Positions 970 through 31,402 of a stretch of DNA of 33,200 nucleotides are shown here, one piece after another. The position numbers and the translations under genes were made by a program. This stretch comes from an uncultured beta proteobacterium (lineage in GTDB: Bacteria; Pseudomonadota; Gammaproteobacteria; Burkholderiales; SG8-41). The notes beneath the pieces are model-generated. The model did not search any database. It saw nothing but the letters and a program-made list of their open reading frames with translations, and was not told the origin of the DNA. Every line of letters starts with the position of its first letter. Position 1 is the stretch's first letter. The DNA lies in NCBI GenBank assembly GCA_903889565.1, contig CAISYC010000033.1, positions 1-33,200 on the forward strand. The letters run 5' to 3'.

Positions 970-1938
970 ATGTTGAAAATTCAAATCGTCGCGCTGCTGG
1001 GCAGCTTGTTATTGGTGTCGTTGCCGGCGTTGGCGCAGTCGGATTCCTATCCATCGAAGCCGGTGCGCCTGATCACGCCGTTTCCGCCGGGCGGCAGCGT
1101 CGATGTGATCGCGCGGCTGGTTGCGCCCAAGCTGTCCGAATCGCTCGGCCGCCAGGTCATCATCGACAACCGTGTGGGCGCCTCGGGCAATATCGGCAAC
1201 GAGCTGGCGGCGCACGCGCCGGCCGACGGTTATACGCTGCTGATCAACACGCTGCCGCTGGTCACCAACATGTACCTGTTCAGCCGCGTGCCGTACGATC
1301 TGCAGAACGATTTCGAACCGGTCTGTCTGCTGTCGTCATCGACCGCGATGCTCGCGGTGCACCCCTCGCTGCCGGTGCGCACGACGCAGGATCTGCTGGC
1401 GCTGGCGCGCTCGAACCGCGGTGTGCTCAATTACGGCACCGCCGGCATCGGCACCAATCCGCATATCGCCGGCGAACTGTTCAACTATCTCGGCAAGATC
1501 AACATCGTCGCCGTGCACTACAAGGGCGGCGGGCCGAGCCTGATCGCGACCATGAGCGGCGAGGTCACGGTGAGCTTCTCGAATATTTCCGAATCGCTGC
1601 CGTATGTCGAGAGCAAGCGCCTGCGCGGCATTGCCATCACCAGCCTCAAGCGGCGCGCGGCCCTGCCGGAGATGCCGGCGATCGCGGAGGCGGTGCCGGG
1701 CTACGAGTTTCTGACCTGGCATGTGATCATGGCGCCGCGTGGCACGCCGCGCGCGATCATCACCCTGCTTAACGAGCGCTTGCGCAAAATCCTCACCGCG
1801 CCCGAACAGGTGCAGCAGTTCGCGAAGAACGGCGTCGATGTCATCGCCAGCACACCAGAAGAGGTCACGGTCCATCTCAAACGCGAGATGGACAAGTGGA
1901 GCCGCGTGATCAAGGAGCGCGGCATCCGCGCCGAATAG
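970..1938 (+). CDS. Bug-family (TctC-like) periplasmic solute-binding protein, SBP1
   Basis: This 322-residue protein is a tripartite-tricarboxylate-transporter (TTT) type extracytoplasmic binding protein, expected to bind a carboxylate in the periplasm. A Sec signal peptide (about 1-22, ending LPALAQ) is followed by the family motif YPSKPVRLITPFPPGGSVD. Downstream come 'IIDNRVGASGNIG' and 'PADGYTLL', which build the ligand pocket in the solved Bug structures. A GGAGGAA ribosome binding site lies 7 bases before ATG 970. The gene stands alone: it converges on a lipoprotein gene 6 bp away. It closely resembles SBP7 in the pocket region (GGSVD; L-x-NT-x-P-x-V-x-N). The ligand is unknown. Confidence 0.92.
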   Translation: MLKIQIVALLGSLLLVSLPALAQSDSYPSKPVRLITPFPPGGSVDVIARLVAPKLSESLGRQVIIDNRVGASGNIGNELAAHAPADGYTLLINTLPLVTNMYLFSRVPYDLQNDFEPVCLLSSSTAMLAVHPSLPVRTTQDLLALARSNRGVLNYGTAGIGTNPHIAGELFNYLGKINIVAVHYKGGGPSLIATMSGEVTVSFSNISESLPYVESKRLRGIAITSLKRRAALPEMPAIAEAVPGYEFLTWHVIMAPRGTPRAIITLLNERLRKILTAPEQVQQFAKNGVDVIASTPEEVTVHLKREMDKWSRVIKERGIRAE

Positions 1939-1944
1939 CCGCGG

Positions 1945-2238
1945 CTAGCGGCGCTCGCCCATGCTGACGCGCGCGCGGTCGCCGTCATGGTCGCGGTCGG
2001 CGTCGTGGAGGACCGGTTCGCTGCGGCCGTGCACGATGCGCACGGGTTCGCGCACCACCTGCGCCGGCGCCCGAATCACGGTGCTGCGCTCGATGTAGAC
2101 CGGCGCCGGCGCGTAAACGACGCGCGCCGGTTCGTAATAGACGGTGGCCGGGCGGTAATAAGCCTGTTCGTAGACCGGGTAGTCGGCGCAGCCCGCCAGC
2201 GCCAGCGTTGCAACGCCTGCCGCGATGAGTGTTTTCAT
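1945..2238 (-). CDS. Small Tyr/Val-rich outer-membrane-type lipoprotein
   Basis: This 97-residue protein starts MKTLIAAGVATLALAGC. The lipobox LAGC predicts lipidation at Cys17 and a mature protein of about 81 residues. The mature part is rich in Tyr, Pro and Val, with repeated 'Y-x-P-A-x-V' units (about residues 28-60). It ends in an Asp/Arg-rich tail. AGGAGG precedes the ATG at 2238. Such short YPA-rich lipoproteins are common in Proteobacteria and have no settled function. It is transcribed towards SBP1, with 6 bp between the stop codons, so it is not in an SBP operon. Retention in the inner or outer membrane cannot be told securely from the sequence. Confidence 0.75.
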   Translation of the reverse strand: MKTLIAAGVATLALAGCADYPVYEQAYYRPATVYYEPARVVYAPAPVYIERSTVIRAPAQVVREPVRIVHGRSEPVLHDADRDHDGDRARVSMGERR

Positions 2239-2380: not shown

Positions 2381-2764
2381 ATGTTCGAGGACGCATCGGC
2401 GCTCAACGCCGCCGGCCGGCTGTGCATTGTGTTTTTCTTTGTCGTCGCCGGTCTGTGCAACCTCACGCCGCAGCGCATCCGCGATCACATCGAGCGCATG
2501 GCCGCCGCGCATACGCCGTTTCCCGAGGCCGCGTTCTGGTTCGGCATCGCGCTGCAATTCACCGGCTGCGCGCTGATCCTGCTCGGCTGGCATGCCGACA
2601 TCGGCGTGTGCTGCCTGATCGTGTTCACGCTGGCGGCGACCGCGATCTTTCACCGCTTCTGGCAGGCTGCTGATCCGGCCAAACGCAACAGCGGGCGCGT
2701 CATGCTGCTCAACAACGTCGGCGTGCTCGGCGGGCTGCTCCTGCTGCTGCAGAACCTGCGATGA
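2381..2764 (+). CDS. DoxX-like small membrane protein
   Basis: This 127-residue protein has four predicted membrane helices: about residues 11-28, 48-66, 70-90 and 107-124. 'GRLCIVFFFVVAGLCNL' at the start and the conserved spacing match the DoxX/DUF417-like family, which includes subunits of oxidoreductases and many proteins of unknown role. A strong AGGAGGAG site precedes ATG 2381. The stop codon overlaps the start of the next SBP gene by four bases (ATGA at 2761-2764), so the two are very probably translated in a coupled manner. Whether it takes part in transport with SBP2 and the TSUP protein is only an inference from gene order. Confidence 0.78.
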   Translation: MFEDASALNAAGRLCIVFFFVVAGLCNLTPQRIRDHIERMAAAHTPFPEAAFWFGIALQFTGCALILLGWHADIGVCCLIVFTLAATAIFHRFWQAADPAKRNSGRVMLLNNVGVLGGLLLLLQNLR

Positions 2765-3822
2765 ATGCGATGTCGCGAGGTCGTGCCCGTTCGATATCGC
2801 AGACCGATGGTTGCGGCGGCGCGCATGAAACTCGCAATACCCTGCGCGCCTTGCGGACCTCAGGCTGGCAAGTGCTGGGGATGTCGGTCTGTGCGCTCGC
2901 GGCGTGCACTGCCTGCGCGCAGAACTATCCGTCCAAGTTCGTGCGTTATGTGGTGCCCTTCGCCGGCGGCAGCGGCGCCGACACGCTTGCGCGCATCGTC
3001 ACTGCCGGCATGGCGCCGGCGCTGGGTCAACCGGTGATCGTCGATAACCGCAGCGGCGCCGCCGGCAACATCGGCACCGAGTTCGTCGCGCGCGCCGCGC
3101 CCGACGGCTACACGCTGTTGCAGGCGAGCACGCCGCAGGCCGCCAATACCAGTCTCTACAAAAACCTGCAGTACGATCTGACGCGCGACTTTGTCGCCAT
3201 CAGCCTGTTGGTGCAGGCGCCCAACATGCTCGTGGTGCACCCCTCGCTGCCGGTGAAATCGCTGCGCGAACTCCTCGCGCTGGCGAAGGCGCGCCCCGGC
3301 GCGATCAATTACTCGTCGGCCGGTTCCGGCTCGTCGATCAATCTGTCGTTTGAAATCTTCAAGGGCATGGCCGGCGTCAACATCGTGCACGTGCCGTACC
3401 GCGGCGGCGGCGAGGCGGTGACCGCGGTGGTCGCCGGCGAAACCTCGGTCAGCCTGCTGCCGCTGGCGACCGCGCTGCCGCAGGCGCGGCAGGGCCGGCT
3501 GCGCGCGCTGGCGGTATCGAGCGCGCAGCGCGCGGCTTCGGCGCCGGAATACCCGACCATCGCCGAGGCCGGCGTGGCCGGATATGAATTCAGCAACTGG
3601 TATGGGCTGCTCGCGCCCGCGCGTACGCCGCGGGAGGTGATCGCCACGCTCAATGCGGCGGCGGTCGCCGCCCTGCGCAAACCGGAGGCGGTGCGGCGTT
3701 GCGCGGATCTTGGCTACAGCGTGGTCGCCGATTCGCCCGAGGCATATGGCGCCTACGTCAAATCGGAAGTCGAGCGTCTGGGCAAACTGATCCATACCTA
3801 CAAGCTGGCCGTCGATGGCTGA
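2761..3822 (+). CDS. Bug-family solute-binding protein, SBP2
   Basis: This is a 353-residue TTT-type binding protein. Family motifs: 'QNYPSKFVRYVVPFAGGSGAD', 'VIVDNRSGAAGNIG' and 'APDGYTLL'. The pocket loop is AGGSGAD rather than the usual PPGGxxD. The N-terminus is unusually long: about 40 basic and polar residues precede the hydrophobic stretch 'MSVCALAACTACAQ'. A start at Met41 (base 2881) would give a more normal but short signal peptide. I keep 2761 because it forms an ATGA overlap with the DoxX-like gene. The 3' end overlaps the TSUP permease gene by 8 bases, so this SBP sits inside a three-gene overlapping operon with two membrane proteins. Confidence 0.9.
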   Translation: MNAMSRGRARSISQTDGCGGAHETRNTLRALRTSGWQVLGMSVCALAACTACAQNYPSKFVRYVVPFAGGSGADTLARIVTAGMAPALGQPVIVDNRSGAAGNIGTEFVARAAPDGYTLLQASTPQAANTSLYKNLQYDLTRDFVAISLLVQAPNMLVVHPSLPVKSLRELLALAKARPGAINYSSAGSGSSINLSFEIFKGMAGVNIVHVPYRGGGEAVTAVVAGETSVSLLPLATALPQARQGRLRALAVSSAQRAASAPEYPTIAEAGVAGYEFSNWYGLLAPARTPREVIATLNAAAVAALRKPEAVRRCADLGYSVVADSPEAYGAYVKSEVERLGKLIHTYKLAVDG

Positions 3823-4558
3823 ACTGTCGGCGCCCGAGATCGCCTATTGCGTGTTTGTCATGCTGCTCGCCTACGGGCTGCGCGGCAGCACCGGTTTCGG
3901 CGGCGCGCTCGGCATGCCGCTGCTCGCACTCGTGCTCCCGATCAAGGTGCTGGTGCCGGTGTGGACGCTGCTCGGTTTTGCCTCGTCGATGGCCATACTC
4001 GGCCGCGACCGCCGGCATGTCGATTACCGCGCGATGGTGGCGTTCATGCCGTGGTGCGCCGCCGGCATCGCGGTCGGACTGTATTTTTTCAAGTCGCTCG
4101 ACGCGCGCATGCTCACGCGCGGGCTCGGCATCGTCGTGCTCCTCTATGCATTGCAGTCGCTGGCCGGCCTTATGCGCGCGCGCGGTCTGCCGGCGTGGCT
4201 GCGCCGCGTCATCGAACCGGTCGCCGGCACGCTGTCCGGCGCCGTCGGCACCATGTTCGGTTCGATGGGCAGCGTATTCTTCGCCATGTATCTCGACGCG
4301 CGCGCGGTGGCGAAGGACGCCTTTCGCGCCACCACCTCGGCAATGCTGCTGCTGTTGTGCATCGTGCGCGGCATCGGCTATTACGCGGTCGGCGAATTCA
4401 CCGTCGATGCGTGGATCATGTTCGCCGCGGCGTTTCCGCTGATGCTGGTCGGCATCTATATCGGCGACCGCGTACAGGTCAATATCAGCGAGCGGGGCTT
4501 TCGCAAGCTTGTGTGCGTGACGCTGTTCGTGTGCGGGATACCGTTGCTGTTTAAATAG
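3815..4558 (+). CDS. TSUP (TauE/SafE) family membrane transporter
   Basis: This 247-residue protein has about seven or eight hydrophobic helices. An early 'GLRGSTGFGGALGMPLLALV' segment is typical of the TauE/SafE (TSUP) family, whose members move sulfite, sulfonates, organosulfur compounds or carboxylates across the inner membrane. A second glycine-rich half-motif, 'SGAVGTMFGSMGSVFFAMYL', lies at about residues 138-157, as expected from the internal repeat of the family. Its ATG lies inside the end of the SBP2 gene (8-base overlap), which indicates co-translation. TSUP proteins are not known to need a binding protein, so the pairing is notable. The substrate cannot be predicted. Confidence 0.85.
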   Translation: MAELSAPEIAYCVFVMLLAYGLRGSTGFGGALGMPLLALVLPIKVLVPVWTLLGFASSMAILGRDRRHVDYRAMVAFMPWCAAGIAVGLYFFKSLDARMLTRGLGIVVLLYALQSLAGLMRARGLPAWLRRVIEPVAGTLSGAVGTMFGSMGSVFFAMYLDARAVAKDAFRATTSAMLLLLCIVRGIGYYAVGEFTVDAWIMFAAAFPLMLVGIYIGDRVQVNISERGFRKLVCVTLFVCGIPLLFK

Positions 4559-4573: not shown

Positions 4574-5533
4574 TCATTCGATGCGCATGCCGGAATCCTT
4601 GACGACCTTTGTCCATTTGACGAGTTCGGTTTTAATGAAACCGCCGAACTGCCGGGGATCGCTCGGCATAATTTCGAAACTCTGCGCGGCAATTGCCGCC
4701 TTGATCTCGGTTTGATCGAGCAGTTTGGTCAATTCTAGATTCAGCCTGGCAATGACCAGCGCCGGCGTGCCCGCCGGCGCGATGACGCCGTACCAGGCTG
4801 TTGTTTCATATCCGGGCACGCCCGATTCGGCGATGGTGGGAATATCGGGCGTGAAGCTCGACCGTTTCGCACTGGTAATGCCGAGCGGGCGCAGGCGGCC
4901 TTCCTTGATGTGCGGAATGGTCGAAGGCTGGCTGCTGAAGGTCAGTTGAACTTCGCCGCCAAGCAGCGCAACGAGTGCGGGGCCGATTCCCTTATACGGA
5001 ATATGCACGATGTCTGCGCCCGTCATGCTGCCGAACAGCGCGCCGGCCAAATGCGCGGCAGCACCGTTGCCGCCCGATGAGTAATTGAGCTGCCGTGGTT
5101 TCGCCTTCGCCAGCGCAACCAGTTCCTGCACGCTCTTTGCCGGCACTGACGGATACACGACCAGAATGTAGGCGGTCGATGCAATCAGGCGCACCGGCGC
5201 GAAATCCTTCAGCGAGTCGTAACCGACATTCGGATACAGCGCCGGATTGACGGTGAGCGTCGGCGTGGTGAGCATTAACGAATAGCCGTCCGGCACCGCG
5301 GTGGCCAGCATGCCGAGGGCGATGTTGCCGCTGGCGCCGCCGCGGTTGTCGATCACCACCTGCTGCCCGAGTTGCTCGCCGAGTCGCGGCGTGATCTGGC
5401 GCGCGACGATGTCGGCGCCGCCGCCGGGCGGAAAGCCGATCAGCATGCGGATCGGCTTCGACGGGTAGGGTTGGGCTGCGGCGACCGCGCCCCACGCCAG
5501 CAGGAAGAAAAATGTGAGCTGCGAGTAGCGCAT
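4574..5533 (-). CDS. Bug-family solute-binding protein, SBP3
   Basis: The product has 319 residues. The signal peptide is about residues 1-20 (ending GAVAAAQ), followed by 'PYPSKPIRMLIGFPPGGGAD'. 'VIDNRGGASGNIA' and 'VPDGYSLM' complete the pocket motifs. The gene is convergent with the TSUP gene (15 bp apart) and divergent from the PrpD1-PrpD2 pair, suggesting shared control with those enzymes. No ribosome binding site precedes the ATG. A good -35/-10 pair lies so close that the transcript would begin at or next to the ATG, so it may be leaderless. No later Met would keep the signal peptide. Confidence 0.92.
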   Translation of the reverse strand: MRYSQLTFFFLLAWGAVAAAQPYPSKPIRMLIGFPPGGGADIVARQITPRLGEQLGQQVVIDNRGGASGNIALGMLATAVPDGYSLMLTTPTLTVNPALYPNVGYDSLKDFAPVRLIASTAYILVVYPSVPAKSVQELVALAKAKPRQLNYSSGGNGAAAHLAGALFGSMTGADIVHIPYKGIGPALVALLGGEVQLTFSSQPSTIPHIKEGRLRPLGITSAKRSSFTPDIPTIAESGVPGYETTAWYGVIAPAGTPALVIARLNLELTKLLDQTEIKAAIAAQSFEIMPSDPRQFGGFIKTELVKWTKVVKDSGMRIE

Positions 5534-5622: not shown

Positions 5623-5693
5623 TCGTGCACCCGATCACGGCGCGCAAAAACAACAATCCCGCGCGCATCCAGCGACCTTCCGGAGGAGCAGTC

Positions 5694-7064
5694 ATGAGCG
5701 TCACGTCAGCATGCGCGGATTTCACCATCAATCTCGAATTTGCGGACATCCCCGCCGAGGCCGTCAAATGGGTCAAGTGGGGCATACTCGACACCACCGG
5801 CGTGACGCTTGCCGGCTCGACGACCGAAACGTCTTCGGTCATCGGCAGGTATCTTGATTTTGTCGGCGGCAATCCGCAGGCGCGCGTGATCGGGCTCGGC
5901 ACCGCAACCAGCGCGCCCGAAGCGGCGATGGCCGACGGCACGCTGGCGCACGCGCTCGACTACGACGATGTCGGTGGCTTCGGTCATCCGACCGCAGTGC
6001 TCGCCCCGGTGATTTTCGCGCTGGCCGACCTGACCAAACCGAGCGGCAAGGAGGCGATCGAAGCCTATGTCGCCGGCTACGAAGTCGGCAACGCCATGGC
6101 CGACCGCAACACCTTCGGCAAGATCGACACAAAGAGTTGGCATCTCGGCTGGCATCCGACCGGGCCGTACGGCACGATCGGCGCGACCGCTACTGCGGCG
6201 CGCCTGTTGAAGCTCACGCGCGAGCAGACCATGCACGCGTTCGGCATCGCCGCCTCCGAAGGCTGCGGCATCCAGAAAAATTTCGGCACCATGACCAAGC
6301 CGCTGCACGCAGGTCTCGCCGCCCGCAACGGCGTGTTCGCCGCACTGCTGGCGCAGCGCGGTTTCACCGCCGACACCGACGCGCTCGGCGGCGAGCAGGG
6401 TTTCCTGCGCGCATTCAAAGGCCCCGGCGATTACACCGAAGAACTCGTCTGCGCGAAACTCGGCAAGGTATGGTCGATCAGCCGCGGACTCGTCATCAAG
6501 TGGTATCCGGCGTGCTGGTCGACGCACCGCGCGACATCCGGCGTGATCGATCTTGTCAAGGAACACCAACTCAAACCAGCCGACATCGAAGCCATCGAAG
6601 TCGATTTTCGTTTGATCCCGCTGCTGCACACGCAGCCGCAAACCGGTCTGCAGGGCAAGTTCTCGATGGCGTTCAACAACGCGCTGGGCGTGTTGAAGGG
6701 CTGGTCGGAAATCCCGGATTACACGGCCAACCGTACGCAGGAGCCGGAAGTAAAGGCGGTCATGCAGAAACTGAAACATGTCGATGATCCGGCCGACGGC
6801 AGCGTGCAGGTGACGATCGTCACGACCGACGGGCGGCGGCTGGCGAAGAACGTCAAGCACGCGCCGGGCGATCCGTCGTTCGGTTTGCAGGAAGAACGCA
6901 CGCGCAACAAGTATCGCGGCTGCGCCGCCTTCCGCCTCGCGCCGGAAGCCGTGCTCGCGGTGGAAAAGGATATTCTCGATCTTGAAAACGTCGCTGATCT
7001 CGCGCCGTTGATGAATGCGCTCGCAGGCAGCAAACAGCCGGCGCGCCAGACGGTACCGGCATGA
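5694..7064 (+). CDS. MmgE/PrpD family protein, PrpD1
   Basis: This 456-residue cytoplasmic protein belongs to the family of 2-methylcitrate dehydratase (PrpD), cis-aconitate decarboxylase and iminodisuccinate epimerase. These enzymes dehydrate, decarboxylate or epimerise small polycarboxylates. The putative pocket residues are all present: 'YDDVGGFGHPT' (His98), 'GWHPTGPYG' (His154), 'TKPLHAG' (Lys202, His205) and 'VIKWYPAC' (Lys269). The start at 5694 follows GGAGGAG. The gene overlaps PrpD2 by four bases (ATGA), so the two are co-translated and may form a mixed oligomer. The substrate is unknown. No prpB or prpC is nearby, so a role in propionate catabolism is not supported. Confidence 0.88.
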   Translation: MSVTSACADFTINLEFADIPAEAVKWVKWGILDTTGVTLAGSTTETSSVIGRYLDFVGGNPQARVIGLGTATSAPEAAMADGTLAHALDYDDVGGFGHPTAVLAPVIFALADLTKPSGKEAIEAYVAGYEVGNAMADRNTFGKIDTKSWHLGWHPTGPYGTIGATATAARLLKLTREQTMHAFGIAASEGCGIQKNFGTMTKPLHAGLAARNGVFAALLAQRGFTADTDALGGEQGFLRAFKGPGDYTEELVCAKLGKVWSISRGLVIKWYPACWSTHRATSGVIDLVKEHQLKPADIEAIEVDFRLIPLLHTQPQTGLQGKFSMAFNNALGVLKGWSEIPDYTANRTQEPEVKAVMQKLKHVDDPADGSVQVTIVTTDGRRLAKNVKHAPGDPSFGLQEERTRNKYRGCAAFRLAPEAVLAVEKDILDLENVADLAPLMNALAGSKQPARQTVPA

Positions 7065-8440
7065 GCACGCTCGTCGAGCGCATCGGCGGCTACGCCGGCG
7101 CGCTGCAAACTTCGGACATTGACAGCAAGGTTGCCGATTACGCCAGGCGCATCCTGCTCGACAGCCTCGCCTGCGGCTATGGCGGTCTCGGCAGCGAGCC
7201 TGCGCGGATCGTGCGCAACGGCATCGTTGAACTCGATGGCGGCGCGCAGGCAACGTTGATCGGCATGAAGGGCGCCAGGGCCAATGCGCAGTTTGCGGCC
7301 CTCGCCAACGGCGTGGCCATCCGCTATCAGGATTACAACGATGTCTACTTCGGTCCGGCGTGGACCGCGCATCCGAGCGATACCATCGCGACGGTAATGG
7401 CCGCGGCCGAATGGAAAGGCCGTTCGGGCTCGGATTTTCTGCTCGGCATGATCATCGCCTACGAAGTGCAGATGCGTTTTTCCGATTTGCCGGTGCCGAG
7501 AAATCTGTGGCACCGCGGCTGGCATCATACGGTGGCCTGTTCGTACGCAGCGGCCGCCGGCGCCGGCCGCATGCTCGGCCTCGATGCGGGCCAGCTCGGC
7601 AACGCCATTGCGTTGTCGGGCGCGCGGTCGAATACGCTGGCCGAAATCCGCCACGGCGACATTCCGATGGACAAGGCGCTCTCCGCGCCGATTGTCGCCA
7701 GCCAGGCGATTCTCTATTCGCTGCTCGCGCGCCAGGGCTTCACCGGCTGCAGCACGCTGCTCGAAGGGCCGTACGGTTTCGGCCAGTCGGTCGCCGGCGG
7801 CGTCGATCTCGAGCCGCTGGTGCCGAAGAAAGGCGACTTCCGCATCATGAAGATCGGACTCAAGCCCTATCCGGTCGAGGGCATGACGCCGGCGATGGTG
7901 CAGGCGGCGATCGAATTGCGCGCCGAACACAAAATCGTTCCGGCCGAAGTCGAAGCGATCACCATCTACGCGCACGAAGAAGCGGTCACCAAGCCGAGCT
8001 GGGACGAGCACAAGTTCGCGCCCGCCAACAAGGAAACCGCCGACCACAGCTTTTACTATTGCACCGCCATCGGACTGGTCGCCGGCGAATGCACCTCGGC
8101 GCAGTTTGAGCCGGTGTGGTTGCGCAATCCCGATGTGGCAAGGCTGATGGCGGTTTCCACGCTCAAAGCGAAGCCGGGGCTGACGGCATTGTTCAAGCAG
8201 GGTGCGCGACCTGCCGCGGTGGAAGTGAAAACCGCGCGCGGCACCTTTATCCGCGAGGTGCTCTATCCAAAGGGCGATCCGCACAGCCCGATGACATGGG
8301 ACGACGTGGCGAAGAAATTCATGACCCAGGCCGAACCGGTTCTCGGCAATGCGCTTGCGCGTGAAATCATCGAACGCACGACGGCGATCGAGAAGGAAGC
8401 TGATATGCGTGATTTTGCGCGGAAACTCGGCGGAATCTGA
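7061..8440 (+). CDS. MmgE/PrpD family protein, PrpD2
   Basis: This 459-residue member of the same family as PrpD1 is clearly not a recent copy of it. It resembles PrpD4 (29014-30405) more: both have a 'RYxDxND-x-YFG' segment, a late 'ADHSxxYC' motif and 'LKPYP/A'. Pocket residues visible: 'AHPSD' (His104), 'RGWHHT' (His155), 'IPMDKALSAP' (Lys205) and 'GLKPYP' (Lys268). ATG 7061 overlaps the stop of PrpD1. The gene ends 9 bp before the convergent SBP4 gene. Together with PrpD1 it forms a two-enzyme operon flanked by divergent SBP3 and convergent SBP4. Confidence 0.88.
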   Translation: MSTLVERIGGYAGALQTSDIDSKVADYARRILLDSLACGYGGLGSEPARIVRNGIVELDGGAQATLIGMKGARANAQFAALANGVAIRYQDYNDVYFGPAWTAHPSDTIATVMAAAEWKGRSGSDFLLGMIIAYEVQMRFSDLPVPRNLWHRGWHHTVACSYAAAAGAGRMLGLDAGQLGNAIALSGARSNTLAEIRHGDIPMDKALSAPIVASQAILYSLLARQGFTGCSTLLEGPYGFGQSVAGGVDLEPLVPKKGDFRIMKIGLKPYPVEGMTPAMVQAAIELRAEHKIVPAEVEAITIYAHEEAVTKPSWDEHKFAPANKETADHSFYYCTAIGLVAGECTSAQFEPVWLRNPDVARLMAVSTLKAKPGLTALFKQGARPAAVEVKTARGTFIREVLYPKGDPHSPMTWDDVAKKFMTQAEPVLGNALAREIIERTTAIEKEADMRDFARKLGGI

Positions 8441-8449: not shown

Positions 8450-9421
8450 CTACTCGACGCGTATCCCCTGCTGCTTGATCAGTTTGTCCCACAGCTCGAA
8501 ATCCTTTCGCAGAAACGCGGCGAGCGCTTCGGGCGTGCCGGTGGCGCCGGTTTCGATGCCCTGGGTGGCGAGGCGTTCCTTGATTTCCGGCATTTGCTGC
8601 ACCTTGGCGATGTCAGCGGCGAGGCGCGTGATGATGTCTCGCGGCGTGTTGGCCGGCGCGAAAAACGCGAACCACGCAAAGACGTCGAAGCCCGGGTAAC
8701 CGGATTCGGCGACGCTCGGCAGGTTGGGCATGCCCGACCAGCGTTTCTCGGTGGTGATGGCGATGGCGCGCAGCTTGCCCGAATCGACGTAGGGCTTCGA
8801 CACGATGGGCGCGGTGAAACTCACCATGACGTGGCCGCCGATCTGATCGACCATCAGCGGGCCCGCGCCCTTGTAATGCACGGTCAGCACATCGATGCCG
8901 GTGCGCGCGCGGAACAGTTCGCCGGCCAGATGCGTCGGCGTGCCGGGGCCGGGTGTGGCGAAGGTCATCTCGCCGGGTTTGGCTCTCGCCAGCGCGATCA
9001 AATCCTTCACGTTGTGCGCCGGCAGCGCGGGATGCACGACGATCATGTTCGGCGAAGTCGCGCCCAACGCGATCGGCGCGAAATCGCGGAACGGATCGTA
9101 CGGCAGTTTCGCATAGAGGCTGAGATTGGTTGTCAGCGAATTGTTGGCGATGAACAGGGTATAGCCGTCGGCCGGCGCTTTGGCTGCGAGTTCGGCGCCG
9201 AGGTTGCCGCCGGCGCCGGCGCGGTTATCGACGATCAGGTTCTGGCCGAGCAGTGCGGGCAGTTTGATGTTGATCACGCGCGCAACGATGTCGTTGCCGC
9301 CGCCGGGCGGGAAGGGCACGATCAGCCGGATCGGCTTGCTTGGATATGGTTGCGCAACGGCTGGCAAAGCAATTGCGCCCGCTGCAACTGCAACCCAGAA
9401 ATTCACCAGGAATCGAATCAT
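8450..9421 (-). CDS. Bug-family solute-binding protein, SBP4
   Basis: The product has 323 residues with a signal peptide of about residues 1-24 (ending LPAVAQ). The motifs are canonical: 'YPSKPIRLIVPFPPGGGNDI', 'LIVDNRAGAGGNLG' and 'PADGYTLF'. The GGGND pocket signature is shared with SBP8. GAGGAG lies about 9 bases before the ATG at 9421. It is the last gene of the minus-strand block SBP6-ABM-SBP5-flavin reductase-SBP4. A repeat unit occupies the 156 bp before it, so it may be transcribed separately. Confidence 0.92.
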   Translation of the reverse strand: MIRFLVNFWVAVAAGAIALPAVAQPYPSKPIRLIVPFPPGGGNDIVARVINIKLPALLGQNLIVDNRAGAGGNLGAELAAKAPADGYTLFIANNSLTTNLSLYAKLPYDPFRDFAPIALGATSPNMIVVHPALPAHNVKDLIALARAKPGEMTFATPGPGTPTHLAGELFRARTGIDVLTVHYKGAGPLMVDQIGGHVMVSFTAPIVSKPYVDSGKLRAIAITTEKRWSGMPNLPSVAESGYPGFDVFAWFAFFAPANTPRDIITRLAADIAKVQQMPEIKERLATQGIETGATGTPEALAAFLRKDFELWDKLIKQQGIRVE

Positions 9422-12095: not shown

Positions 12096-12115
12096 GCGCA
12101 TCGCGCATCGCCGCG

Positions 12116-20544: not shown

Positions 20545-20596
20545 CAACTGCCCGCGCGGCCGGGCCGCAACACGCAGGTTAATAACGGAGGGCAAC

Positions 20597-24788: not shown

Positions 24789-26135
24789 GTGAATTCCATA
24801 TCCCAAACCGTCGCCGCGCACGTCGTTGGTTGTAATTATTTCGCGCTACCCGCAAGTTCGGTGCGCGCGGCGAAAATGCTAATGCTCGATACGCTCGCGG
24901 TGGCGTGGAGCGGATCGTCGGCGCCGGGCGCGCCCGAAGCGCACGCACTGCTGGTTGATGAGGGCGGGCGTGCTGACAGCACGGTGTGGAGCTTCGGCGG
25001 AAAGCTGCCGGCGACATCGGCGACCTTTGTCAACAGCATTGCCGGTGCGGCGCTGGATTACGACGGTGTCGATTGTGTGCACGGCGCGGTGGTCGCGCTG
25101 CCGGCGGCGCTGTCCCTGGCTGAACGCGAGCGCACGAGTGGCAAGGATTTTCTCGCGGCCTATGTAATCGGCAGCGATTTATGTTCGCGTTTTGGCGGTG
25201 CGATCACGGGTGAGCACAAGGGCTGGTACACGACCTCGATCTATGGTGCGTTCGGCGCCGCTGCGACCGCCGCTAAACTGCTCGGGCTGGATGCAACGGC
25301 GACGTGCAATGCGCTGGGACTTTGCCTGAGCCAGGCGGCCGGAACGCAACAGTCGAACATCGAGCAGGCGCTGAGCAAGCGTTTGCAACCGGCATTTGCG
25401 GCGCGTGCCGGCGTGTTCTCGGCGCTGTTGGCGCAAAAAGGCATCAGCGCGCCGCGCGAAGCGATCGAAGGCCGCTTCGGCATGTTCGCGCTGTATCAGG
25501 AGGGCGAGCCGTATAGGATCATCGAGAACCTCGGGCAGCGTTTCGAGCACGAGAACACCGCGATCAAGAAATATCCATGCTGCGCCTGCACGCATGCCTC
25601 GGTCGAAGCCGCGCTTGGGTTGGTTCGCGAATACGATTTGAAACCCGAAGACGTGACGGCGATTGAAGTTCGCCACTCGCCGTTCATGCACCGTCTGGTC
25701 GGCTCACCGTTCAACCCAGGCGAAAATCCGCAGGTGTCGGCGCAGTTCAGCGCTCAATATACGGTCGCGTGTGCGCTGTTGCGGCGACAGATGACTGTTG
25801 CTGATATTCAGGAGGGCGCGATATTCGATCCGGCAATCAGGCTGATTGCGGATCGTATTCGCGTGGTCGTTGAAGATGGATGGACCAGCAATCGTGCACC
25901 GGCGTCGGTGACGATGACGACGCGACAGCACGGTACGATCAGTCGCACCACGGAAAAATTCCCATGGAGCCCGGAGGACCCGCCTACCGACGCGGCACTG
26001 CAGGAGAAACTGGCGGCGTGTTTCAGCGAAGGCGTCAACCCGTTGACGGCCGAGCGCCGCGCGCGCCTTGTCGATCGGGTGAACGACATCGAAAGTGTGC
26101 AGGACATGAGCGAGTTTTTCGAAGGTGTCATTTAA
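24789..26135 (+). CDS. MmgE/PrpD family protein with altered pocket residues, PrpD3
   Basis: This 448-residue family member starts with GTG (24789-24791). No clear ribosome binding site is seen, and the start is chosen by family length. The overall pattern is closest to PrpD1, but several residues that are intact there are changed. 'FGHPT' becomes 'CVHGA' (His98 kept, Pro lost), 'GWHPT' becomes 'GWYTT' (Tyr147 for His) and 'KPLHAG' becomes 'KRLQPA' (Gln200 for His). The later Lys is kept in 'IKKYPC'. The enzyme may have a different reaction or substrate. SBP12 follows 32 bp downstream in the same direction, so the pair looks like an uptake-enzyme unit. Confidence 0.85.
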   Translation: MNSISQTVAAHVVGCNYFALPASSVRAAKMLMLDTLAVAWSGSSAPGAPEAHALLVDEGGRADSTVWSFGGKLPATSATFVNSIAGAALDYDGVDCVHGAVVALPAALSLAERERTSGKDFLAAYVIGSDLCSRFGGAITGEHKGWYTTSIYGAFGAAATAAKLLGLDATATCNALGLCLSQAAGTQQSNIEQALSKRLQPAFAARAGVFSALLAQKGISAPREAIEGRFGMFALYQEGEPYRIIENLGQRFEHENTAIKKYPCCACTHASVEAALGLVREYDLKPEDVTAIEVRHSPFMHRLVGSPFNPGENPQVSAQFSAQYTVACALLRRQMTVADIQEGAIFDPAIRLIADRIRVVVEDGWTSNRAPASVTMTTRQHGTISRTTEKFPWSPEDPPTDAALQEKLAACFSEGVNPLTAERRARLVDRVNDIESVQDMSEFFEGVI

Positions 26136-26167
26136 AAAATCGCGTCATCCCGGAAGGAAATGCAGTA

Positions 26168-27133
26168 ATGGGCAGAAGGCTTTTGAAGCAGGCGTTACTG
26201 TTGCTTGCAATGGCATTCGTTACGGTCGCATGCGGCCAGGGTTATCCGCAAAAACCGATCAGGCTGATTCTGCCGGTACCGCCGGGCGGTGTGGCCGATA
26301 TCATCGCGCGGCCGCTCGCGCAAAGACTCTCGCAGGGGCTTGGTCAGCCGGTGGTGCTGGATAACCGGCCCGGTGCGACGGGTGCAATCGGCCTTGGGCT
26401 GGCGGCGAAAGCGTCCCCCGATGGTTACACGCTGTTATGGGGCTCGACCAACACTTTGTGCATGGGAACGGCGTTGTACGCGACGGCCCCGCCGACCGCC
26501 GATTACGCGGCGATTACGCCAGTGATTATTTTTCACAACGTGCTGGTGGTGCATCCGGCGGTAAGGGTAAATTCAGTCGCGGAACTGATCGATATTGCCA
26601 AAGCGCGTCCGGACACGCTCAGGTTTGCGTCGTCCGGCGACGGCAGCACCAATCATCTGACGGCCGCGTTGTTTCAGATGCTCACCAAGACGCGCACCAT
26701 CCACGTGCCTTATAAAGGCGGCGGCCCGGCGCTGATCGACGTGATGGGCGGACATGTCGAAGGGATGTTTGCGACGGTGCCTTCGGCCGTAAGTTATATT
26801 TCCGGCGGAAAACTGAAAGCATTGATGGTGACGAGCCGGAAACGCGAAGCGGCCCTGCCCGGTGTGCCGGATGCCAATGAGGTGGGATTGCCTGGCCTGA
26901 TTGTCTCGACGTGGAACGGCGTGCTGGCGCCGGTTGCGACGCCGCGCGCCATCGTCAACACGCTGAATGCGGCGATCATAAAAATCGCGCGGACGCAGGA
27001 GATGACGGATCGCTACGCCGCGCAGGCCGCAGAGGTTTACACAACCACGCCCGAGCAGTTCGCCACGGTGATTCGCGATGATTTCGCGAAGTGGAGCAAG
27101 GTCGTCAAGGAAATCGGCCTGAAAGCCAATTGA
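26168..27133 (+). CDS. Bug-family solute-binding protein, SBP12
   Basis: The product has 321 residues with a signal peptide of about residues 1-23 (ending VTVACGQ). The motifs are 'YPQKPIRLILPVPPGGVAD', 'VVLDNRPGATGAIG' and 'SPDGYTLL'. The start at 26168 has GGAAGGA 10 bases upstream. The longer open frame from 25880 is only a shadow of PrpD3. Cys before the mature start does not fit a proper lipobox (TVAC), so normal cleavage is more likely than lipidation. It is co-directional with PrpD3 and convergent with SBP13, only 4 bp apart. Confidence 0.91.
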   Translation: MGRRLLKQALLLLAMAFVTVACGQGYPQKPIRLILPVPPGGVADIIARPLAQRLSQGLGQPVVLDNRPGATGAIGLGLAAKASPDGYTLLWGSTNTLCMGTALYATAPPTADYAAITPVIIFHNVLVVHPAVRVNSVAELIDIAKARPDTLRFASSGDGSTNHLTAALFQMLTKTRTIHVPYKGGGPALIDVMGGHVEGMFATVPSAVSYISGGKLKALMVTSRKREAALPGVPDANEVGLPGLIVSTWNGVLAPVATPRAIVNTLNAAIIKIARTQEMTDRYAAQAAEVYTTTPEQFATVIRDDFAKWSKVVKEIGLKAN

Positions 27134-27161
27134 ACGATTAGTTGGCCTTGATGCCTTTTTT
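27122..27161. terminator. Candidate terminator at the SBP12/SBP13 convergence
   Basis: AAAGCCAATT (27122-27131) and AGTTGGCCTT (27140-27149) pair over 9 of 10 positions, counting one G-U pair. A T-run follows at about 27156-27161 on the plus strand. The hairpin includes both stop codons, so it could end transcripts from either side. The stem is short, hence low confidence. Confidence 0.3.
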
Positions 27162-28133
27162 CCTGATCAGCGCCGCCCACTTGGTTTTTTCTGCGGCGAG
27201 AAAGGTGCTGAACTTCGAGGCGGGGCCGCCAATCAGTTCGGCGCCGAATTCAGCCATCTGTTTCTGATATTCGGGGTCGTTCAGCGTTTCATTGATGGCG
27301 CGGTTCAGCGTCGCCACCAGTGCCGCGGGTGTCTTCGCTGGCACGAGTATGCCGTGTGCGATGACGGACTCAAAACCTCGCAGGCCGCTCTGGTCAAAGG
27401 TGGGAATGTCGGGCAGCACGGGCGAGCGCGTCAGGCTCGCGATCGCCATGCCGCGCAGCCGACCGCTGCGCAGATTGCCGATCGCGGTTGCAGTCGCGTC
27501 AAACAGAAGTTGTACCTCTCCGCTCATCAGCGCCGTGACTGCCGGCGCACCGCCGCGGTAAGGCACATGCCGCAGTTCGATCCCTGCCGCATCCATCAGC
27601 AGTTCTCCGGCGAGATGAATCGACGTGCCGGCACCGCCTGAGGCGAAATTCAGGCTGCCGGGACGCGCTTTGCACAGCGCAATCAATTCCGGCACCGTGG
27701 CCGCAGTCAACGAAGTGCTGGTCAGCAAGACGTGCGGCATTCTGCTCAACAATATGACCGGTGTGAAATCGCGATCGGCATTGAAGGGCAGACGATCGTA
27801 GAGCATTGGATTGACCGCCAGTACCGGATGCGCAACGAACAACATCGAATAACCGTTCGGTGTCGCTTCAGCGATGGCGGCTGCGGCGACATTGCCCGCG
27901 CCGCCGGATAGATTCTGTACTACCACAGGTTGCTTCCACATTCTGCTCAAGCGGTCGGCAAGACGACGCGCGTTGATGTCAGCAGCGCCGCCGGGTGGTG
28001 TCGCCGCGACGATGCGCACCGGCTGAACAGGAAATCCCTGCGCCAGCAAAACCGGAGAGCATGCGAGGCAAATTGCCGCGCACGCCAAGATTGAAAAAAA
28101 GTTTTTCCGGAAAATACAAGATGAGATTGGCAT
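27138..28133 (-). CDS. Bug-family solute-binding protein, SBP13
   Basis: The product has 331 residues with a signal peptide of about residues 1-32 (ending SPVLLAQ). The motifs deviate noticeably: 'VRIVAATPPGGAADINAR' has AATPP for PFPP, 'VVVQNLSGGAGNVA' replaces VDNR with VQNL, and 'TPNGYSML' replaces PDGY. The fold-level pattern is otherwise complete, so it is still an SBP but probably with another ligand. Its base composition is a little less GC-rich than that of the SBPs at 1-20 kb. It is divergent from SDR2-PrpD4 (77 bp), so shared control is plausible. Confidence 0.9.
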   Translation of the reverse strand: MPISSCIFRKNFFSILACAAICLACSPVLLAQGFPVQPVRIVAATPPGGAADINARRLADRLSRMWKQPVVVQNLSGGAGNVAAAAIAEATPNGYSMLFVAHPVLAVNPMLYDRLPFNADRDFTPVILLSRMPHVLLTSTSLTAATVPELIALCKARPGSLNFASGGAGTSIHLAGELLMDAAGIELRHVPYRGGAPAVTALMSGEVQLLFDATATAIGNLRSGRLRGMAIASLTRSPVLPDIPTFDQSGLRGFESVIAHGILVPAKTPAALVATLNRAINETLNDPEYQKQMAEFGAELIGGPASKFSTFLAAEKTKWAALIRKKGIKAN

Positions 28134-28210: not shown

Positions 28211-28966
28211 ATGGATCTTCAATTGAAAGGGCGGACCGCGCTCGTCACAGGTGCCAGTCAGGGTCTCGGTCGTGCGATTGCGCTCGGCATGGCTGCCGAA
28301 GGGCTCAAGGTTGCCGCAGTTGCGCGCCGCATGGATTTGCTCGAAGGATTGCGCGCGGAAATTTCGAAAGCAGGTGGCGCGGATCCGGTGCTCATTCAGG
28401 CTGATCTGTATCCGGAGGGTGCCGCGGAAAGCATCGCCGAGCGCGCGCTTAAGGCGCTGGGCCGCGTGGATGTTCTGGTCAATGCGGCGGGCGGCAGCCG
28501 TCCGTTGCCGGTGAATGCACCTAAAGATCAATGGATGGAGGGGCTGACGCTGAATTTTTTCCGTCTGCGCGAATTGACCGAAGCACTGGTCGGCAGCATG
28601 CAGGCGAACGGCTTCGGCCGCGTGATCAATCTGACCGGCACGCGCGAGCCGCGTAACCTGAATTCGGCGCACGCAGCAAAAGCTGCTGTGCATGTGTGGT
28701 CCAAGGGACTGTCGAAAGTGGTCGCCAAGGACGGCGTCACTGTCAATTGCATTCAGCCGGGCAAACTGCGCAGCGAGCAGATCGACAAGCGCTGGCCGAC
28801 GGAAGAGCTGCGTCGCGAATGGGCGAAAAAAGAAGTGCCGATGGAGCGCATGGGCGAGCCGCATGAGATGGCCGATCTCGCGGTGTTCCTCGCATCTCCG
28901 CGCGCCAGCTACATCACGGGTAACATTATTGCATTCGACGGTGGTGCGAGGTTCTTCGCGTTTTGA
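28211..28966 (+). CDS. SDR-family protein lacking the catalytic tyrosine (SDR2)
   Basis: This 251-residue protein has the Rossmann motif TGASQGLG (13-20), 'VNAAGG' (90-95) and 'YITGNIIAFDGGA' near the end, all typical of short-chain dehydrogenases. In the active-site segment 'LNSAHAAKAAVHVWSKGL' the Lys (157) is present, but the position four residues earlier, normally Tyr, is Ala153. The upstream Ser is replaced by Thr-Gly ('NLTGT'). I recall an SDR subgroup with this 'NAAxAAKAAVHxW' pattern, with unknown chemistry. PrpD4 follows 47 bp downstream, suggesting successive steps in one pathway. Confidence 0.85.
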   Translation: MDLQLKGRTALVTGASQGLGRAIALGMAAEGLKVAAVARRMDLLEGLRAEISKAGGADPVLIQADLYPEGAAESIAERALKALGRVDVLVNAAGGSRPLPVNAPKDQWMEGLTLNFFRLRELTEALVGSMQANGFGRVINLTGTREPRNLNSAHAAKAAVHVWSKGLSKVVAKDGVTVNCIQPGKLRSEQIDKRWPTEELRREWAKKEVPMERMGEPHEMADLAVFLASPRASYITGNIIAFDGGARFFAF

Positions 28967-29013: not shown

Positions 29014-30405
29014 ATGGATAGGTTGAACGTGGCACGATACGTCAAGGACCGCCTTGCGGAGCTGGTTCACGGCATCCGTTTTCAGGACCTGCCGCCGGAA
29101 GTGGTGCAGGCAGCCAAGCGGGTGATCCTTGATACGCTGGCTTGCGCGTCCGGCGCCATGCGCAGCGATCCCGCGGCGATCGTGCGCGGTGTCGCGCATC
29201 AACTCGGCGGAAATCCGGAAGCCACGCTGATCGGCGGGGGCAAAACTTCGTGTGCGCTGGCGACGCTGGTCAACGGCACATTGATGCGCTATCTGGACAA
29301 CAACGACTATTACTTCGGTCTCGACTCGGGGCATCCCAGCGGCAATCTGGCGCCGGCGCTGGCGGTTGCGGAAAAAGCCGGGCGCAGCGGCGCCGATGTC
29401 ATCGCCGCGCTGGTTGCGGCGTATGAGATTCAGATCCGCTTCTGCGATTTTGTCGGCGCGCCCGGCATCTCAGCGCGCGGCTGGCATACCGGCACGCATA
29501 CGCAGTTCTCAAGCGCCGCGCTGGCCGGTCGCCTGCTCAGCGACGATCCCACAGTGACGTCCCACGCACTGGCGATTGCCGGCAGCCACAACAATACGCT
29601 GGCGCAGGCGCAGCGCGGACATATCCCGCTGATGAAGGCCACCGCCGAGGCCGCCATCGCGAAAGGCGGCGTCGAGGCGGCGCTGTTGGCAGCGGGCGGA
29701 CTCACCGGCCCGGATGAAGTCTTCGAAGGCGTTGCAGGTTGGGTCAACATTGTCGCCGGCACGGCGGATTTTGACGCGCTGACGGCGCCGGTGGGCGGAC
29801 ACTATCGCATGCTCGATACCTGTCTCAAGCCCTACGCGGCCGTTGCCGGTGCGATGGCGCCGATCCGCGCCGCGATCGATCTCGCCACGCAGGAAAAATT
29901 GCGGCCTGCGGACATCGTCAGCGTGACCATCAAGCTGCACGCGCACGCCGTTAAAAAAGCCACGGACCCAAAAAAGAACTATCCGCGCGACAAGGAAACG
30001 GCAGACCACAGCTACCATTACTGCATTGCGGCGGCACTGCTCGATGCCGCCTGCGGGCCGGCGCAGTTTGAAGACGCGCGGATTGCCGCCGAGGACATTC
30101 GCGAACTGATCGCAGTGACCAGCCTGGAAGCCGATGCCGAACTGACGGCGCTGTGGCCGGCCTCGTCGGGCGGCGGTGTGGTGGTGCGATTGCGCGACAG
30201 CAGGGAACTGAAGCGCACGTACCCGTATCCGCCGGGGCATCCGAAAAATCAAATGACCGATGCGGATGTCGAGCGGAAATTGTTCGACCTCACCGACGGT
30301 GTTCTCACCAATGCGCGCACGCAACAGATCGTTGAGGCGGTGGGCCGCTTCGAGCGTTGCGACCGCGTTGGAGATGTGCTCGGTCTGTGCGCTATCGACG
30401 CCTGA
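29014..30405 (+). CDS. MmgE/PrpD family protein, PrpD4
   Basis: This 463-residue MmgE/PrpD protein is most similar to PrpD2, by the shared 'RYLDNND-YYFG', 'ADHSYHYC' and 'LKPYA' segments. Pocket residues are conserved: 'SGHPSG' (His107), 'ARGWHTG' (His158), 'IPLMKAT' (Lys208) and 'CLKPY' (Lys272). ATG 29014 gives a normal family length. No strong ribosome binding site is visible. It is 47 bp downstream of SDR2 and convergent with SBP14 (10 bp apart). The reaction is probably dehydration, decarboxylation or epimerisation of a carboxylate, but the substrate cannot be told. Confidence 0.87.
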   Translation: MDRLNVARYVKDRLAELVHGIRFQDLPPEVVQAAKRVILDTLACASGAMRSDPAAIVRGVAHQLGGNPEATLIGGGKTSCALATLVNGTLMRYLDNNDYYFGLDSGHPSGNLAPALAVAEKAGRSGADVIAALVAAYEIQIRFCDFVGAPGISARGWHTGTHTQFSSAALAGRLLSDDPTVTSHALAIAGSHNNTLAQAQRGHIPLMKATAEAAIAKGGVEAALLAAGGLTGPDEVFEGVAGWVNIVAGTADFDALTAPVGGHYRMLDTCLKPYAAVAGAMAPIRAAIDLATQEKLRPADIVSVTIKLHAHAVKKATDPKKNYPRDKETADHSYHYCIAAALLDAACGPAQFEDARIAAEDIRELIAVTSLEADAELTALWPASSGGGVVVRLRDSRELKRTYPYPPGHPKNQMTDADVERKLFDLTDGVLTNARTQQIVEAVGRFERCDRVGDVLGLCAIDA

Positions 30406-30415
30406 GGGCGGACGG

Positions 30416-31402
30416 TCATTCCGTCCGGATATTGCTGCTCCGGATCGCCTTTTCCATGCGGCTGGTTTCCGCTTTGACGGTCGCCGTGAGTTGCTCCGGC
30501 GAGCTGGCGGCGATTTCCAGGCCGATGTTGAACAAGCGCTCCCGGATATTGGCCTGATTCAGTATCTGCACGATTCCCGCATGCAGACGATCGAGAATTT
30601 CCTGTGGCGTGCCGGTCGGCGCAAACATCGCCACCAGGGAGACGGCTTCATATCCAGGTAGCCCCGCGCTCGAAACGGTTGGCAATCCAGGCGCCAGCGC
30701 AGACGGGCCCGCGCTCGTCACCGCCAGCGCGCGTACTCTCGATGACTTCACATGCGGCATGACTGAAGCCGCTGTCGCGAACATCAGATGTGCTTCGCCG
30801 CCGACCAGCGCATTGACTGCAGGACTCGCGCCCTTGTAAGGCACGCGTACGATGTTGACGCCCGCCATGTGGTTGAACAAGGCGCCCGCCAGATGATTCA
30901 TCGCACCGGAAATCCCGGAAGCATAATTGAGTTGCCCCGGCATTGCCTTCGCCAGCGCGATCAGTTCCTTGACGGATTTGACGGGTAGCGACGGATGCAC
31001 GACGACGATGTTGGGTGTGCTCGCCGCAAGAGTGATGGGTGAAAAATCCCGCAGTACATTGTACGACGTGCTGTCCTGAAGCAGCGGCTGCAGCCACAGG
31101 GCGTTAATGAAGACCAGCAGCGTGTAGCCGTCGGCCGGCGCCCTGGCGACGATGCCGGCCGGGATTGCCACGTTGCCGCTGCGATTTTCAACTATCGCGG
31201 CTTGTCCCCAGGCCGTGGTAAGCCCCTGAGCAATCACGCGCGACACAATGTCGGTAGCGGCGCCGGCGTCAGCGGTGATGATGCGTATGGGCTTGACTGG
31301 ATAGCCTTGCGCATTCGCGCTGCTTGCCAGCAGCAAACCGGCGCACAGCGCTGCTGGGCGAAACCGATTGCGCCGGAATTCCGGCCTGGTTGATATTCTC
31401 AT
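30416..31402 (-). CDS. Bug-family solute-binding protein, SBP14
   Basis: The product has 328 residues if started at ATG 31402, which gives a basic n-region and a signal peptide ending ASSANAQ (about residue 32). The first motif 'YPVKPIRIITADAGAATD' lacks the PPGG loop altogether. The second is 'IVENRSGNVAIPAG', while 'PADGYTLL' is normal. The in-frame ATG pair at 31481-31486 lies just 3 bases past the ThDP-enzyme stop, with GAGGA 10 bases upstream; translation from there would add 28 residues and remains possible. Either way it is in one operon with the ThDP enzyme. The unusual pocket loop suggests a distinct ligand. Confidence 0.88.
   Translation of the reverse strand: MRISTRPEFRRNRFRPAALCAGLLLASSANAQGYPVKPIRIITADAGAATDIVSRVIAQGLTTAWGQAAIVENRSGNVAIPAGIVARAPADGYTLLVFINALWLQPLLQDSTSYNVLRDFSPITLAASTPNIVVVHPSLPVKSVKELIALAKAMPGQLNYASGISGAMNHLAGALFNHMAGVNIVRVPYKGASPAVNALVGGEAHLMFATAASVMPHVKSSRVRALAVTSAGPSALAPGLPTVSSAGLPGYEAVSLVAMFAPTGTPQEILDRLHAGIVQILNQANIRERLFNIGLEIAASSPEQLTATVKAETSRMEKAIRSSNIRTE

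Follow-up and report, generated by a model that had tools for sequence, protein, structure and literature searches.

Contig C33 (CAISYC010000033.1) of the uncultured betaproteobacterial genome GCA_903889565.1 was analyzed over its complete length of 33,200 bp, here called the window, and the ends of the contig coincide with those of the window. It carries 14 genes (S1 to S14) for TctC/Bug solute-binding proteins, the receptor type of the tripartite tricarboxylate transporters (TTT), and these genes alternate with genes for enzymes of several families (Table 1). The source genome comprises 5.04 Mb in 74 contigs, with a completeness of 99.7% and a contamination of 3.9%. All 14 receptor genes matched the TctC profile PF03401 (cut-off, 27 bits), 13 of them at 188 to 251 bits and S10 at 89 bits, and a custom hidden Markov model built from S1 to S14 also gave 14 matches in the window. 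A signal-peptide-like hydrophobic core near the mature start was located in 12 of the 14 proteins with a hydrophobicity script; in S3 and S8, the strongest hydrophobic segment found by the script was elsewhere, and their N termini were judged signal-peptide-like by eye. For S2, S9, S11, S12, and S14, translation probably begins downstream of the first start codon. In the ligand loop G-G-x-x-D, the first glycine and the aspartate are invariant in all 14 proteins, and the second glycine is present in 10, being absent from S2, S6, S10, and S14. An earlier note, made from the letters of the window, had described 14 binding protein genes with signal peptides and Bug/TctC motifs, and these data bear it out, the proteins being diverse TctC/Bug receptors.

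The receptors are 22% to 48% identical to the first sequence and therefore are not recent copies; the same note had concluded from the differing pocket loops that they are not simple copies. The best identities between receptors inside the window are 25% to 50%, and in a 202-tip receptor tree, only S1 and S7 among the window receptors are close together. Recent tandem duplication as the origin of the cluster was consequently rejected: the identities within the window contrast with those of 70% to 89% to receptors elsewhere (11 of the 14), and the tree contradicts it as well. S10 groups in this tree with five receptors of the source genome (support, 0.999). The nearest solved relatives of S3 are Bug27 and a terephthalate-binding protein.

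The window genes are organized into the groups DoxX-S2-TauE, S3 divergent from MmgE1-MmgE2, S6-ABM-S5-flavin reductase-S4, SDR1-HpcH/HpaI-S8, hydrolase-S9, S10-S11, MmgE3-S12, S13 divergent from SDR2-MmgE4, and thiamine diphosphate (ThDP) enzyme-S14. Eight joins between genes of the same direction have gaps of -8 to 11 bp, one of them resting on the estimated start of the HpcH/HpaI gene. Thirty-three window proteins were scanned against Pfam, and four had no family match. The closest solved relative of MmgE2 is 2-methylcitrate dehydratase, a weak match of 79 bits, and the relatives of the ThDP enzyme include acetolactate synthase and 2-hydroxyacyl-CoA lyase. The ABM protein has a signal-peptide-like segment by eye, and a position between receptor genes is an unexpected place for this family. 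At positions 21602 to 24308, the groups are interrupted by a gene for a protein without a Pfam match, membrane-bound-looking by eye, and by a TPR-methyltransferase gene.

TABLE 1 Predicted genes of the 33,200-bp window
Feature	Position	Strand	Profile match or other observation
S1, TctC/Bug solute-binding protein	970..1938	+	PF03401, 188.5 bits; 79% match in other genome
S2, TctC/Bug solute-binding protein	2761..3822	+	PF03401, 248.1 bits; 8-bp overlap with TauE gene
TauE/SafE-family membrane permease	3815..4558	+	PF01925, 93.1 bits; overlaps S2
S3, TctC/Bug solute-binding protein, divergent from MmgE pair	4574..5533	-	PF03401, 240.8 bits
MmgE/PrpD enzyme 1 (MmgE1)	5625..7064	+	PF03972, 203.6 bits; closest solved relative iminodisuccinate epimerase 2hp0, 216 bits
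MmgE/PrpD enzyme 2 (MmgE2), 4-bp overlap with enzyme 1	7061..8440	+	PF03972, 202.7 bits
S4, TctC/Bug solute-binding protein	8450..9421	-	PF03401, 217.8 bits; 89% match in other genome
Flavin-reductase-like protein, between S5 and S4	9578..10264	-	PF01613, 74.6 bits
S5, TctC/Bug solute-binding protein	10332..11309	-	PF03401, 251.1 bits
ABM (antibiotic biosynthesis monooxygenase-like) protein, between S6 and S5	11317..12108	-	PF03992, two stretches; 7-bp gaps
S6, TctC/Bug solute-binding protein	12116..13075	-	PF03401, 238.7 bits
S7, TctC/Bug solute-binding protein	13269..14234	+	PF03401, 237.8 bits
S8, TctC/Bug solute-binding protein	14854..15822	-	PF03401, 238.3 bits
HpcH/HpaI aldolase-family protein, upstream of S8, start estimated	15824..16600	-	PF03328, 123 bits
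Short-chain dehydrogenase 1 (SDR1)	16612..17406	-	PF13561, 174.9 bits; beside S9 homolog in 4 other genomes
S9, TctC/Bug solute-binding protein (listed start probably too early)	17560..18672	-	PF03401, 211.2 bits
Alpha/beta hydrolase, upstream of S9	18624..19511	-	PF00561, 82.9 bits
S10, divergent TctC-like binding protein	19510..20544	+	PF03401, 89.3 bits; PDB 25hk, E 1.4e-29
S11, TctC/Bug solute-binding protein (start probably close to 20597)	20456..21568	+	PF03401, 229.8 bits
MmgE/PrpD enzyme 3 (MmgE3), upstream of S12	24789..26135	+	PF03972, 171 bits
S12, TctC/Bug solute-binding protein (start probably close to 26160)	25880..27133	+	PF03401, 214.9 bits
S13, TctC/Bug solute-binding protein	27138..28133	-	PF03401, 211.1 bits
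Short-chain dehydrogenase 2 (SDR2), divergent from S13	28211..28966	+	PF13561, 139.9 bits
MmgE/PrpD enzyme 4 (MmgE4)	29014..30405	+	PF03972, 217 bits
S14, TctC/Bug solute-binding protein, 3 bp after ThDP enzyme gene	30416..31486	-	PF03401, 192.6 bits
ThDP enzyme	31490..33148	-	PF02775, PF00205, PF02776; PDB 3e9y, E 1e-38

Receptor genes of this type are found throughout the genome. A search of the genome gave 445 first-look TctC candidates, 150 of which were scored, all above the cut-off (weakest, 232 bits). In 18 stretches of 20 kb taken at regular positions from eight large contigs (sample A, not random because all eight contigs were already among the TctC search matches), 40 complete or partial TctC genes were counted (0.111/kb, which extrapolates to ~560 per genome); they were located in 12 of the stretches and absent from the other 6. 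Sample B, 20 more stretches (394 kb) picked from contigs carrying TctC matches, held 93. The density of the window is 0.42/kb (14 per 33.2 kb), about fourfold that of the sampled stretches, versus 0.088/kb for the genome (445 candidates in 5.04 Mb). Its densest 20 kb contains 11 TctC genes, compared to a maximum of 8 over the 38 sampled stretches, and a 20-kb stretch of a relative (L132) likewise holds 11. The negative binomial distribution fitted to sample A predicts ~0.8 windows with 14 genes in 33.2 kb per genome, and the window is therefore an extreme but expected patch. It is the dense tail of a continuum, one patch in a genome-wide expansion; the specialized locus set apart that the earlier note had envisaged is not supported by these data.

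The expansion extends to the whole family: TctC candidates were present in 74 of the 74 family genomes searched (range, 64 to 996; median, 272), and 24 of these exceeded 434. The family counts are of first-look candidates, 28 of which were scored per genome in the 74-genome search. The congeneric genome G003 had 995 TctC and 286 MmgE/PrpD candidates in 5.7 Mb. A check of 20 of its stretches (276 kb) gave 49 TctC and 14 MmgE/PrpD matches, which extrapolates to ~1,010 TctC genes per genome versus the 995 candidates. At least 270 profile positions were covered by 35 of these 49 matches, and 14 were shorter, including 6 at the end of a stretch; G003 may thus have ~720 near-full-length TctC genes.

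The genes for the membrane subunits, in turn, are few. A profile search of the genome contigs identified no TctA or TctB gene on the window contig, and hence no TctA and TctB beside a receptor to form a complete TTT system there. The whole genome had four TctA and four TctB matches, plus one subthreshold TctB match, all on contigs C8, C15, and C61, to be set against the 445 TctC candidates. The earlier note had reported a window with no membrane subunits; this is correct for TctA and TctB and incorrect for permeases in general, as the TauE/SafE gene had been overlooked. Its suggestion of distant, shared permeases agrees with the counts, since any TctAB partner must be both distant and shared, with 4 TctAB units for ~445 to 560 receptors. 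In 25 family genomes, the TctA counts were 1 to 16, without correlation to the TctC counts (rho, 0.12).

Among 114 of the 124 non-TctC genes adjoining TctC genes in samples A and B (10 long ones were excluded), the most frequent families were alpha/beta hydrolase (10 genes), MmgE/PrpD (9 genes), and Amidohydro_2 (7 genes), followed by glyoxalase, UGSC, and CMD (4 genes each), while 114 genes away from TctC genes included 4 alpha/beta hydrolases and 2 MmgE/PrpD proteins. Consecutive TctC genes in these samples formed runs of up to four. MmgE/PrpD proteins had 58 matches in the genome (from 61 candidates), including the 4 in the window. A TctC gene was located within 1.5 kb in 24 of the 30 best-scoring MmgE/PrpD loci, compared to 22% of random intervals in sample A (binomial P, 2.6e-11). 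Across the 74 family genomes, the candidate counts of the two families correlate with a rho of 0.86 (0.73 per Mb and 0.61 with genome size held), these correlations being uncorrected for relatedness and their points not independent. In a set of 41 genomes, all 10 with at most one TctC match also have at most one MmgE/PrpD match. The co-expansion of MmgE/PrpD enzymes with TctC is new here, as is the alternation of receptors with enzymes, some pairs of which recur in other genera. The six closest named records of MmgE1 (70% to 93% identity) are all metagenome-assembled genomes (MAGs), three of them titled Betaproteobacteria and three bearing titles that seem to be wrong. Close relatives of MmgE1 (77% to 93%) are encoded by MAGs titled Chitinophaga pinensis or Bordetella parapertussis (L078, L080, and L081), titles that look misassigned. 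Among plasmids, MmgE1 matched 135 records, all at <60% identity.

Much of the gene order is conserved. The order S1-DoxX-S2-TauE-S4-flavin reductase-S6-S7 recurs, with gains and losses, in G012, G005, and G006, and also in G001, where it is split over two contigs (G012 and L079, and likewise G005 and L078, were each counted once). S3 is close to MmgE2 or to the whole MmgE pair in G012 and, outside the genus, in G018 (with a gene between), G017, and G022; only weak receptor-like matches were seen at the MmgE pair in G016 and G024. The S9-SDR1 pair recurs in G005, G012, G021, and G022. For 11 of the 14 receptors, matches of 70% to 89% were found in other genomes versus at most 57% in the source genome, a comparison in which the other-genome loci had been fetched for their likeness to the window, the source genome was partly sampled, S10 to S14 were outside the DNA query, and the own-genome value of S1 is the window itself. 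S12 to S14 had no match above 55% in any sequence compared. The dN/dS ratios of the 10 receptors compared, out of 14, were 0.09 to 0.29 (dS up to ~1.06), and these receptors are therefore kept by purifying selection.

One receptor is coupled to a membrane protein. The end of S2 and the beginning of the TauE/SafE gene share exactly 8 bp in all five genomes with an S2 ortholog (69% to 73% identity across these genomes), and this is the only pair of overlapping receptor and carrier genes in the window. On its other side, S2, taken from its listed start, shares 4 bp with the DoxX gene in the window; in the relatives, the projected starts differ. TauE homologs are present in 62 of the 74 family genomes. 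Among the best 30 TauE loci of the family, 13 have a TctC gene of the same direction at most 300 bp before: (i) 5 belong to the S2 clade; (ii) 4, from 4 genomes, belong to a second clade, with gaps of 4 to 26 bp; and (iii) 4, likewise from 4 genomes, belong to a third clade, with gaps of 34 to 293 bp (in both cases with starts projected from the alignment). In samples A and B, the background for such an upstream TctC gene is 23 of 409 (5.6%) within 60 bp and 49 of 409 (12%) within 300 bp. The three clades have a support of 1.0 each and do not group together, suggesting that the pairing could have arisen at least three times. The other 17 of the best 30 loci have no such TctC gene within 300 bp; of these, one locus is truncated by the end of its contig, another has a partial TctC gene at a distance of 1,021 bp, and the 72%-identical TauE copy in G002 is without TctC. 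Recurrence of the pairing inside the source genome was considered and rejected, as a TctC gene lies no more than 1.5 kb from only 2 of its 10 TauE-family loci (one of which is the window), and at one of the two the TctC match is partial. TauE had no match in plasmids at 1e-20, and no solved structure matched its sequence at E values up to 1.

S2 and the TauE/SafE protein, predicted from their genes, could form a new class of binding protein-dependent secondary transporter, consisting of a TctC receptor and a TauE/SafE carrier. We regard this as a tentative proposal that is rather doubtful, and our confidence, low from the beginning, was lowered slightly further because sulfite export is the role of the best-known TauE. 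TauE of Cupriavidus necator is cited in this role (PMC5373536), and the description of TauE as an exporter speaks against an uptake role of S2-TauE. No description of a TctC-TauE pair was found in a literature search, as judged partly by titles and abstract openings.

Taken together, we favor, with modest confidence, a reading in which receptor-enzyme cassettes follow each other densely along the window, each receptor capturing the substrate of the neighboring enzyme for a few shared permeases. A cassette would consist of a periplasmic binding protein and one or two proteins of enzyme families able to act on organic acids (MmgE/PrpD, HpcH/HpaI aldolase, short-chain dehydrogenase, hydrolase, flavin reductase, or ThDP enzyme). 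The binding protein would capture the carboxylate consumed by the adjoining enzyme, and the loaded receptor would dock on one of the few shared permeases, i.e., the four TctAB units elsewhere in the genome or, for S2, the coupled TauE/SafE protein. The cell could then take on a new substrate with one more receptor and enzyme, without another complete transporter. The ligands, the docking on shared permeases, and the uptake function are what we infer here from the arrangement of the genes. Several observations weigh against this reading. With ~110 receptors per TctA, docking of all of them on four permeases is strained, and over all 41 relatives, a set reaching beyond the family, the counts of TctC and TctA are correlated (rho, 0.67). 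The adjacency of MmgE/PrpD and TctC genes may partly result from both families sharing flexible regions: the expectation from the TctC-rich sample B is 49% (P, 5e-4). For 6 of the 30 MmgE/PrpD loci, no TctC gene is closer than 1.5 kb. Furthermore, G026 has 245 TctC candidates and 7 MmgE/PrpD matches, and in G005, the MmgE1-MmgE2 pair is flanked on one side by a different receptor, with S3 absent from the short stretch up to the contig end.

A large excess of receptors over TctAB units could also be explained by signaling. The receptors would then be sensors, the ligand-loaded proteins binding histidine kinases or chemoreceptors (as in the BctC-BctE type) and switching on catabolic genes without any transport. 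BctC of Bordetella pertussis serves both transport and signaling (PMC5812351), 14 of 22 histidine kinase genes of Rhodoplanes have TctC genes in their vicinity (PMC5994714), and the few TctAB units leave most of the receptors without an obvious permease. However, no kinase, chemoreceptor, or transcription factor was recognized alongside the receptors among the 33 window proteins scanned, 4 of which had no family match; distant kinases were not searched for. Likewise, no regulator family had three or more members among the top 25 of 152 families in the 114 TctC-adjacent genes, where scattered single regulators are possible. The signaling function suggested in the earlier note thus finds no local support, and we consider it unlikely. 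The same excess might mean that the proteins scavenge or buffer scarce acids in the periplasm, concentrating them for whichever permease is present, so that matched subunits are not needed. The pairing with enzymes observed here is not predicted by this explanation, which we consider quite improbable.

The receptors could instead work with permeases of families other than TctAB, mostly not adjoining them, S2-TauE being the visible case. The 8-bp overlap in five of five genomes and the two further TctC clades before TauE homologs agree with this, and so do the TAXI-GltS systems, in which a binding protein can partner an unrelated secondary carrier (PMC12344293), and the 41 TctC genes linked to ATP-binding cassette and 8 linked to tripartite ATP-independent periplasmic transporters in Rhodoplanes (PMC5994714). 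Given that TctC genes accompany only 2 of the 10 TauE loci of the genome at up to 1.5 kb and that no other permease family was recognized in the window, where one unassigned protein after S11 looks membrane-bound by eye, we give this explanation a small chance. The division of the genome into 74 contigs, the contamination of 3.9%, and the end of the contig at the window would fit an assembly or binning artefact, or an accumulation of decaying, nonfunctional duplicates. This is contradicted by the conserved gene order, much of which recurs in four congeneric genomes, and by selection, as seen from the dN/dS ratios of 10 receptors; in addition, the 14 open frames span the domain, and the GC content of the contig (63.1%) is inside the range of the 38 sampled stretches (54.6% to 64.8%). 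An artefact or decay is accordingly very improbable. The receptor-enzyme cassettes with shared permeases remain the reading that we prefer.

Since the Bordetella genomes, it has been a question why some bacteria maintain so many binding proteins with so few permeases. A lineage with up to nearly a thousand candidates per genome, linked to enzyme genes and especially to MmgE/PrpD, makes it possible to test the matching of receptor ligands to neighboring enzymes, and such matching would help to assign substrates in the large and mostly uncharacterized MmgE/PrpD family. The TctC-TauE pair may represent a new class of transporter, in which case orphan TctC receptors would recruit carriers outside TctAB.

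Parts of this arrangement resemble characterized systems. The gene tphC is in a terephthalate catabolic operon, away from tpiBA, so that a receptor is encoded with catabolic enzymes and its permease elsewhere; this is the closest worked example of the proposed cassette mechanism, with the difference that TphC is one characterized receptor with a known ligand and the receptors here are predicted and belong to many cassettes (PMC8556258). Another example is in Advenella, where two TctC-type receptor genes are beside the catabolic genes mdo and acd (PMC5373536). The itaconate/methylsuccinate cluster of Cupriavidus necator has an MmgE/PrpD protein, a proven methylsuccinate isomerase, encoded close to a TctC-type gene; it is a single cluster, whereas here there are 58 MmgE/PrpD matches in one genome (PMC12290011). 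As for S2-TauE, TAXI-GltS of B. pertussis is similar in having a binding protein translationally coupled to a carrier outside the usual class. TAXI-GltS combines a TAXI receptor with GltS and was proposed from translational coupling and fusions (PMC12344293); the combination here, predicted from the genes, is of a TctC receptor and a TauE/SafE protein. The permease coupled to S2 belongs to the same Pfam family as TauE of C. necator, which exports sulfite (PMC5373536).

The expansion itself is of a kind already known from the orphan Bug proteins of Bordetella and Rhodoplanes, which have up to hundreds of TctC/Bug genes, few TctAB units, mostly orphan receptors, and array neighbors that are mostly <50% identical (PMC5994714 and PMC5812351). 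Rhodoplanes sp. Z2-YC6860 has 434 TctC genes in 8.2 Mb, and its authors stated in 2018 that no gene family of greater abundance had been described in a prokaryote (PMC5994714), compared to the 445 candidates (~560 by extrapolation) in 5.04 Mb here and up to 996 in the relatives. Judging by gene counts, the expansion would be larger than the printed cases found, of which 434 is the largest; no larger TctC count in other lineages was found in the open-license literature, judged largely from listings. In Rhodoplanes, TctC genes form runs of up to nine (PMC5994714), whereas the window receptors alternate with enzymes. In a Rhodoplanes-type expansion, more than half of the receptors would be expected to have their best match in their own genome; here, with the own genome only partly sampled, the best matches found are mostly in other species. 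Unlike in Rhodoplanes, MmgE/PrpD is co-expanded here. Thus, the orphan TctC/Bug expansion is known, and the enzyme-tied cassettes, the MmgE/PrpD co-expansion, and one candidate transporter pair are new.

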